Shown: in pieces, positions 58,705-61,748 of the stretch | How positions within the stretch are numbered: the stretch's first letter is position 1 | Layout: each line of letters starts with the position of its first letter | From: Luteolibacter ambystomatis | GTDB taxonomy: Bacteria; Verrucomicrobiota; Verrucomicrobiia; Verrucomicrobiales; Akkermansiaceae | Assembly: GCF_018137965.1 (NCBI RefSeq) | Contig: NZ_CP073100.1 | Coordinates: forward strand, 1,984,001-2,048,000 | Length of the DNA: 64,000 nucleotides | Direction: 5' to 3' | The notes under the pieces: model-generated | What the model saw: the letters and a program-made list of their open reading frames with translations, nothing else | What the model was told of the DNA's origin: nothing | The model's database searches: none | Made by a program: the position numbers and the translations under genes

Positions 58705-58736
58705 AATGACTTCATTGCAATAGAGCCGGACATGGC

Positions 58737-58770
58737 GGCCCCGGAGAGTGGTTACTCCGGGGCCGTCTTT
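58737..58770 (+). terminator. Rho-independent terminator after glycosidase gene
   Basis: Perfect 10-bp stem GGCCCCGGAG / CTCCGGGGCC with an 8-base loop, followed by GTCTTTTTC. It lies between converging genes. Confidence 0.9.
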
Positions 58771-58822: not shown

Positions 58823-59803
58823 TCAACTTCGCAGCGTAGGCCGTCTCCGCCACCACAGCAGCAGGCAGCCGATCATTACCGGAAAGCAGCCTCCCGGTTC
58901 CGGCACGGATGCGCCGCTGCCATCCTGGCTGCCCGACCAGTAGTACCAGTTGTTGCCGCGCGAAGTCACCGAATCGGAAACCATCGCATACAATCCGTCA
59001 TGTCCTCCGCCATCGGAGGATCTCGCACGGCCCGCAAGGGCGAGTACCGGTTCCTCCGCCGCCGTAGGAGTGGTCACCGCCATCTCACCGAAGGATGGAG
59101 CTTCACCGCCGAATGCCTCGCGGGCCGCGATCCTCCCGGCGTCCTTCCATTCGTGGATCGGTTCGACACCTTCGGGAAGTTCGGCCGCAGTGGGAATTTC
59201 CATTTTCGCCACCGCAGGCACCATGGCCGCGGAAGCCGGATCCGGCTCAACCGCGAATGGAGGCGCAAATGCCGTCACATGCGCCGGTGCTTCGGCACTG
59301 GAAGGCACCAGCGAGATCTCCGCCACAGGCACATCGTTTCCTCCGGTCGTGGCGGCCGTTCCGGTGGAACCGGTCTTCTTTGAAGGCAGTATCTGCAATG
59401 TCACCATGGCGGCGAGGGAGGCAGCCATCGCGCCGGCGATCAAACCTACGGCACGCATCGTACGTCGCGGAGTCTTCGCGCCGCGCTCCAGTGTGGAGGC
59501 GGCCGTCAGGCGCAGTGCCGAACGCAGTTCCCGCAGGAAGCCATGCTGGGCAACCACCGCGGCGCAGAATCCCGGGTGAGTCACCAGGCGGTCCATCAGG
59601 GCGACATCCGCCGGACGCTCGCCCATCAGCCAATCAAAGGCCGCCTGCTCGTCATCGTTCACGCACGGGAATGGCACCACGTTCTCCGGCATCACCACCG
59701 GTCCCATCGCGGCGGCGAACAAGGCGGCACGCCGTGCCTCGCCAAGCTCGAAGTCCGGAACCTCCAGCGAGGTCTCCAGCAGATCGACGAAGGAATCGCT
59801 CAC
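58823..59803 (-). CDS. Anti-sigma-factor-like membrane protein with PEP-CTERM-like tail
   Basis: 326 residues. Residues 1-~110 are a soluble, probably cytosolic part (SFVDLLETSLEVPDFELG...); 117-139 is a transmembrane helix (VGLIAGAMAASLAAMVTLQI). A long Ala/Pro/Glu-rich extracytoplasmic stretch follows. The C-terminus reads VPEP (300-303), hydrophobic helix, then RRR, the PEP-CTERM plan recognised by exosortases. Its start overlaps the stop of the ECF sigma gene (4 bp), the usual place for an anti-sigma factor. I see no zinc-finger anti-sigma motif, so the anti-sigma function is inferred from position and topology. Confidence 0.72.
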   Translation of the reverse strand: MSDSFVDLLETSLEVPDFELGEARRAALFAAAMGPVVMPENVVPFPCVNDDEQAAFDWLMGERPADVALMDRLVTHPGFCAAVVAQHGFLRELRSALRLTAASTLERGAKTPRRTMRAVGLIAGAMAASLAAMVTLQILPSKKTGSTGTAATTGGNDVPVAEISLVPSSAEAPAHVTAFAPPFAVEPDPASAAMVPAVAKMEIPTAAELPEGVEPIHEWKDAGRIAAREAFGGEAPSFGEMAVTTPTAAEEPVLALAGRARSSDGGGHDGLYAMVSDSVTSRGNNWYYWSGSQDGSGASVPEPGGCFPVMIGCLLLWWRRRPTLRS

Positions 59804-60330
59804 GCGTCCCCCCCTTCCACGCGCCAGCGCTGGCGCAGTTGTTTCACCGCGAGATGGAGGAAGTAGCCGACATTCCCTTGTGAAATGCCGGTGACCTCCT
59901 CGATCTCGCGGTAACTCAGACCCACCTGGAACTTCAAACGCACCAGCTCGCGCTCGCGGTCCGGCAGTTCCGCCACCAATTCCGCCAGCTTGCGCTCGCG
60001 TTCACCGCGATCGAGCTGCGCGTCCGGCGACATGCCATCATCATCCGGGATGTCGAAGCGGGCCGGATCCAGACCGAAGGTCACGACCTTCTGGCGGCGC
60101 AGGTGGTCACTGACCACATTGCGGCAGACGGTGAAAAGCCAGGCGGCGAGGTTTTCCGGCATGCCTTTCTCGCGGTGACGGATCAGACGGAAGAAGGTTT
60201 CCTGCACGGCATCGCGCGCCAGCTCACGGTCCGAGCACAGCGTGTAGGCGTGCTTGAGCAATGGCTTCTCATAGCGGACGAGGATTTCCGCCAGCCAGTT
60301 CCCGGACTCCATGGGCACCGCTTCGCTCAC
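59800..60330 (-). CDS. ECF-type RNA polymerase sigma factor
   Basis: 176 residues, normal for the group. Region 2: LLKHAYTLCSDRELARDAVQ then ETFFRLIRH, and the -10-binding WLFTVCRNVVSDHLRRQ. Region 4: LPDRERELVRLKFQVGLSYR, then EIEEVTGISQGNVGYFLHLA as the helix-turn-helix that reads -35. Middle gene of a three-gene minus-strand operon with 4-bp overlaps on both sides. Activity is probably held in check by the membrane protein encoded next. Confidence 0.93.
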   Translation of the reverse strand: MSEAVPMESGNWLAEILVRYEKPLLKHAYTLCSDRELARDAVQETFFRLIRHREKGMPENLAAWLFTVCRNVVSDHLRRQKVVTFGLDPARFDIPDDDGMSPDAQLDRGERERKLAELVAELPDRERELVRLKFQVGLSYREIEEVTGISQGNVGYFLHLAVKQLRQRWRVEGGDA

Positions 60331-60851
60331 GGTGGAGGCGGTGTGGGTTCGGGGTTGGCGAGGAGATTGGCGACGGTTTCACGCGCCTCATCGGTCTCCG
60401 ACCATGAGGGCAGCTCCAGGAAGTCCGCCGCTTCCCGGCAGGCATTCGTTTCAGCGGGATCGCTCATCCGGGTGGCCGCCAAGCGCAGCACGGCGATCCC
60501 ATCCGGCTCGCCGAGCTGGATCAAGCCCTCGCGTGCGGCGCTACGTAGATCCCGATCCGTGCTGGTGAGATAGGGTGCGATCGCCTTCACCGCGGCGGGT
60601 TCATAGCTTTTCACCGCCTCGTCGATCCGGGCCATGACATCCGCGCGCTCTTCGGCGGAGGACCCGGCGGTGGCACGGGAGGAAACCCGCGCCGAGGCGA
60701 CCTGCTGCCGGGAGGCTGGCAGCTTCGCGTCCTCGGACGGGCGGAGCGTTTCAAACGCACCCGCTACACCCGCTTTCCCACCCCGATGCCGGGTGGCGAA
60801 GCCGAGAACGACCGCAAAGCCCAGCAGGATGACAGCGAGATAGCGTTTCAT
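60327..60851 (-). CDS. Exported or anchored HEAT-like repeat protein upstream of ECF sigma
   Basis: 174 residues. N-terminal hydrophobic helix (YLAVILLGFAVVLGFA) after MKR acts as a signal or anchor. Residues ~70-155 contain HEAT-type helices (AVKAIAPYLTSTDRDLRSAA, then REGLIQLGEPDGIAVLRLAA). First gene of the operon with the sigma factor (stop/start overlap). It could be the extracytoplasmic part of the sensing module; this is positional inference. Confidence 0.72.
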   Translation of the reverse strand: MKRYLAVILLGFAVVLGFATRHRGGKAGVAGAFETLRPSEDAKLPASRQQVASARVSSRATAGSSAEERADVMARIDEAVKSYEPAAVKAIAPYLTSTDRDLRSAAREGLIQLGEPDGIAVLRLAATRMSDPAETNACREAADFLELPSWSETDEARETVANLLANPEPTPPPP

Positions 60852-60859
60852 GCGTCAGG

Positions 60860-60905
60860 AAAAAGGAGCATCCCCCGATCCTACCCAAGAAGGACCGGGA
60901 GATGC
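60860..60905 (-). terminator. Rho-independent terminator between secreted gene and sigma operon
   Basis: On the minus strand a 15-bp stem (GCATCTCCCGGTCCT pairing with AGGATCGGGGGATGC, two wobble pairs), 8-base loop, then TCCTTTTT. It separates the 60921-61595 gene from the downstream sigma-factor operon. Confidence 0.88.
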
Positions 60906-60920
60906 CCGGATGCATTCTTC

Positions 60921-61595
60921 TCAGGGCACTGCAGCGCCTGGGAAGAACGGGGTGAGATTGATCGGATTCGCACGCTGCACCTTGTAGGTGCCGGTGTAGA
61001 TCGCGTTTCCGGTGGCGGCTTTGCCGGAAAGATCGAAGGTTTCCGTGCGGGTGATCACCGTGTTGCTGGAGTCACCGATTTTCAGCGTGGCGGACTTGAT
61101 GGTCTGCGTGCCGATGCCCGATCCCGCGCCACCCTTGAAGGTGAGCGTGGTGTAGGCGCGGCGGGTCAGACTCGGAAGCTCCGGGCTGTTGGAGGTGTTC
61201 TTGGTGAGCGTGCCGCTGTCGGCCTTGCCCTGCACGACCGGCTGGGTGAGCAGCGAGGCCGGAACGGCGACCGCCACCTTGCCTTGCTTCGCAGCGTAGA
61301 TGTTGCCCACGTCATTGGCATTGGTGAAGCGGGTCAACACCCAGCCGCTGATGGTGCCGTCCAGAAGATTGGCCGCGCGCATGGCATCGAGGATTTCGCG
61401 GTTGGTGAAGCGCGCGGAGGTCACCGCGTAGGTCTTCTTGGTGCCGCCGTTGGGAAGCTGTTGGGTGACCGGCGCACCTTCCGTCACGACTGTGGCGGAA
61501 AGGGCGATCGGAGCATTGGCTCCCGGCTTGACGGTCTGGCCGTATGCGGAGGCAGCGCCGAGCACGCCGGCGGTAACGAGGATGATGGATTTCAT
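60921..61595 (-). CDS. Secreted hypothetical protein
   Basis: 224 residues; signal peptide MKSIILVTAGVLGAASAYGQ. The mature part is Thr/Ala/Gly-rich and strand-like, with ARFTNREILDAMRAANLLDG then TISGWVLTRFTN, LTRRAYTTLTFKGGAG and FDLSGKAATGNAIYTGTYKV. No recognised family or anchor. Monocistronic by context: a terminator follows directly, and the upstream FtsK gene ends ~150 bp away on the same strand. Confidence 0.72.
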   Translation of the reverse strand: MKSIILVTAGVLGAASAYGQTVKPGANAPIALSATVVTEGAPVTQQLPNGGTKKTYAVTSARFTNREILDAMRAANLLDGTISGWVLTRFTNANDVGNIYAAKQGKVAVAVPASLLTQPVVQGKADSGTLTKNTSNSPELPSLTRRAYTTLTFKGGAGSGIGTQTIKSATLKIGDSSNTVITRTETFDLSGKAATGNAIYTGTYKVQRANPINLTPFFPGAAVP

Positions 61596-61748
61596 GAGGT
61601 AATCGGATGTTTCAAGGCGAGCGCCGCGGACCGCTCGCCATGAACATCGGATGACCGGAGGATTTCTTGGCGATTTCCGAAAAAATCACGTGTGACGGTT
61701 CTGTGACCGACCTAACCATGGCGGCGGTTTCCAACCACCGCCAACACC

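Follow-up and report, generated by a model that had tools for sequence, protein, structure and literature searches.

A conserved ECF sigma factor locus of Luteolibacter ambystomatis with a putative anti-sigma factor ending in a PEP-CTERM-like tail, and a sister clade ending in an autotransporter barrel

The window considered here is a stretch of 64,000 nt of Luteolibacter ambystomatis DNA (NZ_CP073100.1); unless another locus is named, coordinates are positions in it, and the start codons of the open reading frames are inferred. On its minus strand, the window carries a gene for a HEAT-like protein, followed by a gene for an extracytoplasmic function (ECF) sigma factor and then by a gene for a 326-aa membrane protein; each gene overlaps the next by 4 bp. 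This overlapping order had been proposed in a first-pass annotation of the same DNA and is borne out by the open reading frames, as are the internal helix and the C-terminal VPEP-helix-RRR that it had described in the last protein of the series. The elements of this locus that matter most for what follows are:
60327..60851, minus strand: HEAT-like protein, 174 aa, whose N-terminus looks by eye like a membrane anchor or a signal.
59800..60330, minus strand: ECF sigma factor with regions 2 and 4, 176 aa, GTG start (PF04542, PF08281, TIGR02937).
58823..59803, minus strand: putative anti-sigma factor with a PEP-CTERM-like tail, 326 aa, GTG start.
59468..59803, minus strand: N-terminal domain of this protein (N-domain, residues 1-112), presumed to be cytoplasmic and to bind the sigma factor, with the motifs ELGEARR..PENVV and FDWLMGE in the alignment.
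59396..59452, minus strand: its first transmembrane helix (residues 118-136), with a hydropathy peak of 2.08 and a predicted helix at 116-136 in a low-confidence model.
58907..59389, minus strand: its presumed extracytoplasmic spacer (residues 139-299), of low complexity and mostly without predicted structure.
58841..58906, minus strand: its PEP-CTERM-like tail (residues 300-321), VPEPGGCFPVMIGCLLLWWRRR, with TIGR02595 scores on either side of the cut-off and conservation in 8/8 homologues.

The sigma factor scores 96.8 bits against TIGR02937, for a cut-off of 42.9, and Pfam sigma regions 2 and 4 are both matched above their curated cut-offs. The membrane protein has no Pfam match at E-values up to 1. 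Its hydropathy profile displays one strong internal stretch (residues 118-139) and a weaker C-terminal stretch followed by RRR, and its C-terminus has the VPEP-helix-RRR plan, i.e., a PEP motif, a transmembrane helix and a basic cluster, which is found by alignment in all eight homologues described below. An N-terminal signal peptide is absent, residues 118-139 being the only strongly hydrophobic stretch before the tail. In the low-confidence AlphaFold model (mean predicted local distance difference test score, pLDDT, of 38), the N-domain is helical and the spacer contains a single predicted helix, at residues 218-230, with pLDDT under 40 per block. No sensor domain could be recognized between the helix and the tail from Pfam, the alignment or the predicted structure, which leaves the sorting signal as the only recognizable extracytoplasmic element of the protein.

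A profile of the N-domain was used to search for homologues in 260 genomes of the family. Eight were found with E-values of 4.3e-41 or better, the next match being at 2.7e-3; these eight include the L. ambystomatis genome itself and represent fewer than eight independent lineages, as G352 and G662 are close relatives. Beyond the family, no homologue was detected in 386 genomes of the order or in 288 genomes of the phylum, weak partial matches aside. All eight loci keep the order HEAT-like gene, sigma factor and membrane protein, both 4-bp overlaps, and the tail. The mean pairwise identity among the eight homologues is 0.44 for the N-domain, 0.26 for the first helix, 0.22 for the spacer and 0.54 for the tail, and it reaches 0.83 over the five columns of V/I-PEPG or -PEPS. 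Past residue 138, the only invariant residues are P301, E302, P303 and R320. The tail is kept in 8/8 homologues despite the poorly conserved spacer of about 160 residues that precedes it, and the idea that it is a chance or ordinary feature was rejected because of this conservation. The first-pass annotation had raised the possibility that the homologues of relatives lack the VPEP tail, and none of the eight does.

The family model TIGR02595 (PEP_CTERM), whose cut-off is 16 bits, disagrees with itself on this tail, giving 16.6 bits in a six-frame search of the genome versus 11.8 in the protein scan. The C-terminal segment might be a second membrane anchor that resembles PEP-CTERM by chance and is never processed, a reading that we regard as improbable. 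It would account for the score below the curated cut-off in the protein scan, and for a protein devoid of the N-terminal signal peptide that is usual for PEP-CTERM proteins according to Haft et al. (2006; PMC1569441). Yet an anchor needs no P-E-P, while P-E-P and one R are precisely the sole invariant residues past position 138, and all carriers of the tail encode an exosortase.

Other searches around the tail were less productive. A profile of the whole protein matched 62 of the 386 genomes, with six full-length matches; the others were C-terminal, mostly to the PEP-CTERM tail, and were dropped. Among the 17 weak rows of the N-domain profile search, three belong to the sister clade with a barrel that is presented below (G064, G039, G108), while a fourth, L078, is a further ECF-linked gene; L077 and L086 were also read and look unrelated. 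Comparison of the 52 PEP-CTERM hits of the L. ambystomatis genome with its 43 sigma region-4 hits did not reveal a second PEP-tailed anti-sigma factor. What comes closest, L144/L011, is a regulator of the LuxR type that has an ordinary PEP-CTERM protein as its neighbour; in addition, a different ECF sigma factor gene (L149) has a weak PEP match (11.7 bits, below cut-off) at a distance of 2.2 kb on its downstream side.

The first-pass annotation had also made its proposal dependent on the presence of an exosortase, and the L. ambystomatis genome encodes two of them, together with its 52 PEP-CTERM hits. The first exosortase matches TIGR02602 above cut-off and comes closest to XrtA, without reaching the XrtA cut-off; the gene downstream is EpsI-like, likewise below cut-off, and Cys, Arg and His are found at what we take to be the expected places. 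The second is nearest to XrtQ, again below the corresponding cut-off. It adjoins a gene for a VWA-like protein ending in SVPEP-helix-RRR (L002:934-3656; C1:4855603-4858325 in the L. ambystomatis genome), and from sequence the two are likely to form a dedicated exosortase-substrate pair. An exosortase is encoded in 8/8 carrier genomes, as is needed for the tail to be processed, and this is no association by itself since 86 of the 97 sampled genomes of the family have one; exosortase presence was accordingly dropped as a measure of association.

A second form of the putative anti-sigma factor came from a search of 254 family genomes with a profile of the eight sigma factor orthologues. This profile gives eight matches with E-values of 9.6e-100 or better, seven at 2.7e-59 to 1.8e-57, and the rest at 4.8e-40 or weaker. 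In the sigma factor tree, the eight rows of the PEP clade group together (95/98) and are joined to the seven rows of the intermediate set at a moderate 88/70. At these seven sister loci, the gene downstream of the sigma factor gene encodes an N-domain, a helix and a Pro-rich linker (by eye), and PF03797, the autotransporter beta-barrel, is found at the C-terminus above cut-off in 7/7 proteins, all of which end in Phe. A C-terminal Phe is typical of outer-membrane proteins. The seven proteins thus described apparently are single proteins reaching from the cytoplasm to the outer membrane:
L183:1479-3548, L184:3019-5106, L185:1534-3594, L186:3120-5081, L187:2253-4202, L188:1995-3977 and L189:1163-3325: barrel-ended putative anti-sigma factors.

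These equivalents in the sister clade, ending as they do in an autotransporter beta-barrel, lend unexpected support to a link between the anti-sigma factor and envelope sorting. The two forms are found together in one genome, G137. Direct comparison of the PEP-clade and sister N-domain profiles aligns 97 columns with an E-value of 2.2e-4 and a probability of 45%, and the PEP-clade N-domain profile weakly matches three of the seven sister proteins (E-values of 0.02-0.1), so that the two N-domains are probably related. By eye, the barrel-clade proteins seem to hold two or three copies of the first N-domain motif. The motifs ELGEARR..PENVV and WLxGE (59468-59803 in the window) are also seen by eye, in swapped order, in more distant anti-sigma-like proteins such as L181, as if these distant proteins were permuted or derived from repeats. 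More distant sigma factors, sampled at 16 loci, are followed by neither a PEP tail nor a barrel tail, judging by eye from 15 complete downstream proteins. One ECF-linked type from the same family (L171), with vWF_A and YfbK domains, resembles the proteins discussed here in its related sigma factor, its N-domain with an ALGELP-type motif and its one helix (by eye); it differs in its C-terminus, which in the one protein scanned has vWF_A and YfbK_C domains instead of a PEP or barrel tail, and, by eye, in the reversed order of its two N-domain motifs.

The existence of the sister clade also bears on a reading in which regulated proteolysis has exosortase as its site-1 enzyme: once exposed by a signal, the tail would be cut by exosortase, and further proteases would free the sigma factor, much as in the case of RsiP and signal peptidase. 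The conservation of the tail would fit such a role, and a peptidase of the secretion pathway acting on an anti-sigma factor has a precedent in RsiP (PMC8844934). However, a distal cut would leave a long periplasmic stub, and the sister clade has a barrel, and not a PEP tail, at the same place; we consider this reading decidedly unlikely.

Several features of the 326-aa protein fit an anti-sigma factor: its gene overlaps the downstream end of the sigma factor gene, and the protein consists of an N-terminal soluble domain followed by one crossing helix. Sequence similarity to known anti-sigma domains gives a mixed picture. The PEP-clade homologue of G006 matches NF052375 with an E-value of 0.0048 over residues 100-172, a span that contains the helix. 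Among the sister N-domains, three of the four scanned match NCBIfam anti-sigma models with E-values of 7e-6 to 8e-5 and the fourth with 0.53, all below curated cut-offs. The 326-aa protein is probably an anti-sigma factor, for which binding to the sigma factor is predicted from sequence. The opposite reading, that of an unrelated membrane or surface protein that is co-transcribed with the sigma factor and is no anti-sigma factor, would be in line with the absence of a Pfam match and with the non-significant comparison with two anti-sigma-like proteins. Against it stand the 4-bp overlap with the sigma factor gene in 8/8 loci, the topology, and the similarity of profile between this N-domain and the sister one, for which matches to anti-sigma models exist, albeit below cut-off; we give this opposite reading hardly any weight.

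Upstream of the three overlapping genes, on the same strand, lie the elements that may control their expression:
61638..61679, minus strand: putative ECF-type promoter block upstream of gene 1, with CCAAGAA (-35 like), 13 bases, and CCGAT (-10 like).
60921..61595, minus strand: gene 1, 224 aa, with a signal-peptide-like start (by eye) and a homologue at the same place in 8/8 loci.
60866..60907, minus strand: terminator-like hairpin in the interval between gene 1 and the HEAT-like gene, with a 17-pair stem, then CTTTTT.

The promoter element resembles ECF promoters. In the PEP clade, CCAAG(A/G)A-N14-CGA(T/C) is present upstream of gene 1 in 8/8 loci; in the barrel clade, CCAAG(G/T)A-N14-CGT(C/A) is present with identical spacing directly upstream of the sigma factor gene in 7/7 loci, these latter sites having been located by means of the CCAAG core known from the PEP loci and not chosen blindly. 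A matrix built from the barrel-clade sites only ranks this same block first among all hits on both strands of the entire 11-16 kb locus in seven of the eight PEP loci. Since the same promoter-like block precedes gene 1 in one clade and the sigma factor gene in the other, these data suggest that the sigma factor transcribes its own gene from this putative promoter and is hence autoregulated, with the secreted gene 1 product coming first in the PEP clade. From its position, gene 1 is likely to be a target as well as the first gene of the unit. Its product has no Pfam match above cut-off and no useful match in the PDB, and its AlphaFold model is too poor for a fold search (mean pLDDT 41.8). This product (60921-61595) looks secreted and has a PGAxVP-like C-terminus that is kept among the loci.

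A hairpin separates gene 1 from the HEAT-like gene in 8/8 loci, and five of these hairpins come with a T run (G000, G127, G006, G019, G137). Unless a promoter was missed, this position, 60866-60907 in the window, suggests that the regulators would be made by read-through past the hairpin (attenuation). Another strong hairpin with a T run, at 58734-58767, separates the anti-sigma gene from a converging glycosidase-like gene.

The regulon appears to be narrow. One exact form of the promoter pattern occurs twice in the whole L. ambystomatis genome, here and at one other place. Scanning of about 274 kb of DNA from this genome (partly overlapping, about 5% of the genome) with the matrix gave a good score for this site alone, 54.7 versus 9.1 for the next hit, the training of the matrix having included this site; the scanned DNA comprises both exosortases and 30 of the 52 PEP-CTERM hits. 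No copy of the promoter block turned up at these genes, and a simple exosortase stress loop is therefore not supported. Likewise, a regulon extending over the PEP-CTERM and exosortase genes was considered and not seen, either by matrix in this 5% or with the one exact pattern genome-wide. As far as predicted sites can tell, a regulon this narrow argues against a classical stress response in which exosortase levels would rise.

The HEAT-like protein deserves attention in this context. Its match to HEAT_2 is sub-threshold in the Pfam scan (20.2 bits, for a cut-off of 27.7), and a weak match in the PDB, to 5iww, whose chain is named PLS9-PPR, was not useful. Its gene lies upstream of the sigma factor gene with a 4-bp GTGA overlap in 8/8 loci, and it is possible that the protein is a periplasmic co-regulator. 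At the six barrel-clade loci read, no HEAT-like gene could be seen immediately before the sigma factor gene. One may propose that exosortase is only a maturation enzyme, which trims the tail constitutively and places the end of the linker in the envelope, and that it is the HEAT-like protein or the gene 1 product that senses the signal, as RseB or a ligand would do. The overlap of the HEAT-like and sigma factor genes at every PEP locus, together with the lack of such a gene in front of the sigma factor gene at these six barrel loci, is compatible with this proposal, as are a putative promoter that precedes gene 1, whose product could feed back, and PEP-CTERM genes that fall outside the apparent regulon in the scanned DNA. 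However, the spacer, where a co-regulator would bind, is barely conserved, and the HEAT-like gene is apparently dispensable in the sister clade. We find this explanation rather unlikely.

The reading that we put forward, to which we give about an even chance of being correct, is that of an autoregulated pair of an ECF sigma factor and a membrane anti-sigma factor, where the anti-sigma factor would be handled as a substrate by an envelope-sorting machine and its sorting state would serve as the input; this reading and the four alternatives set out above were weighted so as to sum to 1. More precisely, the N-terminal helical domain would hold the sigma factor in the cytoplasm, one helix would span the inner membrane, and the long unstructured linker would cross the periplasm. 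The distal end would carry the sorting signal, i.e., PEP-CTERM for exosortase here and an autotransporter barrel for the β-barrel assembly machinery (BAM) in the sister clade. As long as this end is processed or anchored, the sigma factor would be held; failed sorting or loss of the anchor would cause degradation or a change of shape of the anti-sigma factor, and the freed sigma factor would transcribe its own unit, starting with the secreted protein. Hand-over of the distal end as the input fits the absence of a sensor between the helix and the tail. In this scheme, cleavage by exosortase, use of the promoter, the direction in which the signal acts, proteolysis, the role of the HEAT-like protein as a periplasmic co-regulator and that of gene 1 are predictions from sequence. 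The first-pass annotation had suggested that an anti-sigma factor processed by exosortase could report on protein sorting or exopolysaccharide status: the link with sorting gains from the tail in 8/8 homologues and the barrel in 7/7 sister proteins, and the link with exopolysaccharide, looked at through exosortase alone, is not supported.

A number of observations weigh against this sorting-based reading. Regarding the tail, the annotated protein is below the TIGR02595 cut-off (11.8 versus 16 bits), and this model matches only four of the eight homologues at E-values up to 10; when six homologues were scanned at E-values up to 1, G019 was above cut-off with 21.6, G352 just under it with 15.8, and four were unmatched. 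As for the anti-sigma assignment, the N-domain is without a Pfam match, no significant similarity emerged when it was compared directly with two other anti-sigma-like proteins linked to ECF factors, and the AlphaFold model of the candidate is unusable (mean pLDDT 38.1). The sigma factor tree flags long branches. For the promoter, besides the non-blind choice of the barrel-clade sites, the eighth PEP locus, G127, failed with the barrel matrix, and in the reverse test the PEP matrix scores the barrel sites from 2.8 to 31.6, with only four of the seven above 9.1, the best unrelated hit in L. ambystomatis DNA. To these are added the frequency of exosortases among relatives and the absence of the promoter block from the scanned exosortase and PEP-CTERM genes. 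Finally, site-1 cuts prepare the substrate of the site-2 protease, from which a distal exosortase cut would differ in that it would leave a stub of about 160 residues.

Comparison with known systems helps in delineating what is new. PEP-CTERM substrates generally, if not universally, have an N-terminal signal peptide, and the regulation described for them is by sigma-54 with PrsK/PrsR in Proteobacteria (PMC1569441, Haft et al., 2006). Common to the PEP-CTERM/exosortase (EpsH, Xrt) system and to the case presented here are the tripartite tail, an exosortase and many other PEP-CTERM hits in the genome; in contrast to the substrates covered there, the L. ambystomatis protein begins with a soluble domain and carries an internal helix instead of a signal peptide, and an ECF pair is found instead of sigma-54.

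RseA-DegS-RseP is an ECF sigma/membrane anti-sigma pair with regulated proteolysis. Another anti-sigma factor, RsiP, is cut by signal peptidase (PMC8844934). With such ECF/anti-sigma pairs, the present pair shares overlapping genes, an N-terminal soluble domain, a crossing helix, a periplasmic part and probable autoregulation. Unlike in RseA or RsiP, the distal end looks like something that a sorting machine would act on, a sensor domain is not recognized, and a second helix is present before processing. The closest parallel in logic may be NlpE-Cpx, where the sensor is a substrate of the sorting route that it monitors and reports failure of its own sorting (PMC6538781). However, NlpE, as described there, is a lipoprotein acting on a separate kinase system; here, the anti-sigma factor itself would be the sorted protein. 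No earlier description of an anti-sigma factor as an exosortase substrate was found in the open-access literature, subscription journals being mostly outside the coverage of this search, nor was one of an anti-sigma factor with an autotransporter barrel, again in the open-access literature and with a broader search judged by title. There is a fair chance that this ECF/anti-sigma pair, recognized from its sequence, is the earliest noticed representative of a whole class whose anti-sigma factors are read through envelope sorting.

More tentatively, and with somewhat less than an even chance in our estimation, both clades may belong to one ECF lineage whose anti-sigma factors are plugged into envelope assembly, so that transcription would read completion by exosortase or BAM in cis, or else tension of the tether; these proteins would then form a class of trans-envelope anti-sigma factors. 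Little is known about what exosortase sorting does for the cell, and a brake on a sigma factor that is an exosortase substrate would, if true, be a built-in reporter of exosortase activity. The barrel form, if true, would be one protein linking an inner-membrane anti-sigma factor to the outer membrane, and a direct test case for the sensing of outer-membrane assembly outside the well-studied Proteobacteria. In both forms, cells may read the state of their envelope directly via the brake of a sigma factor.

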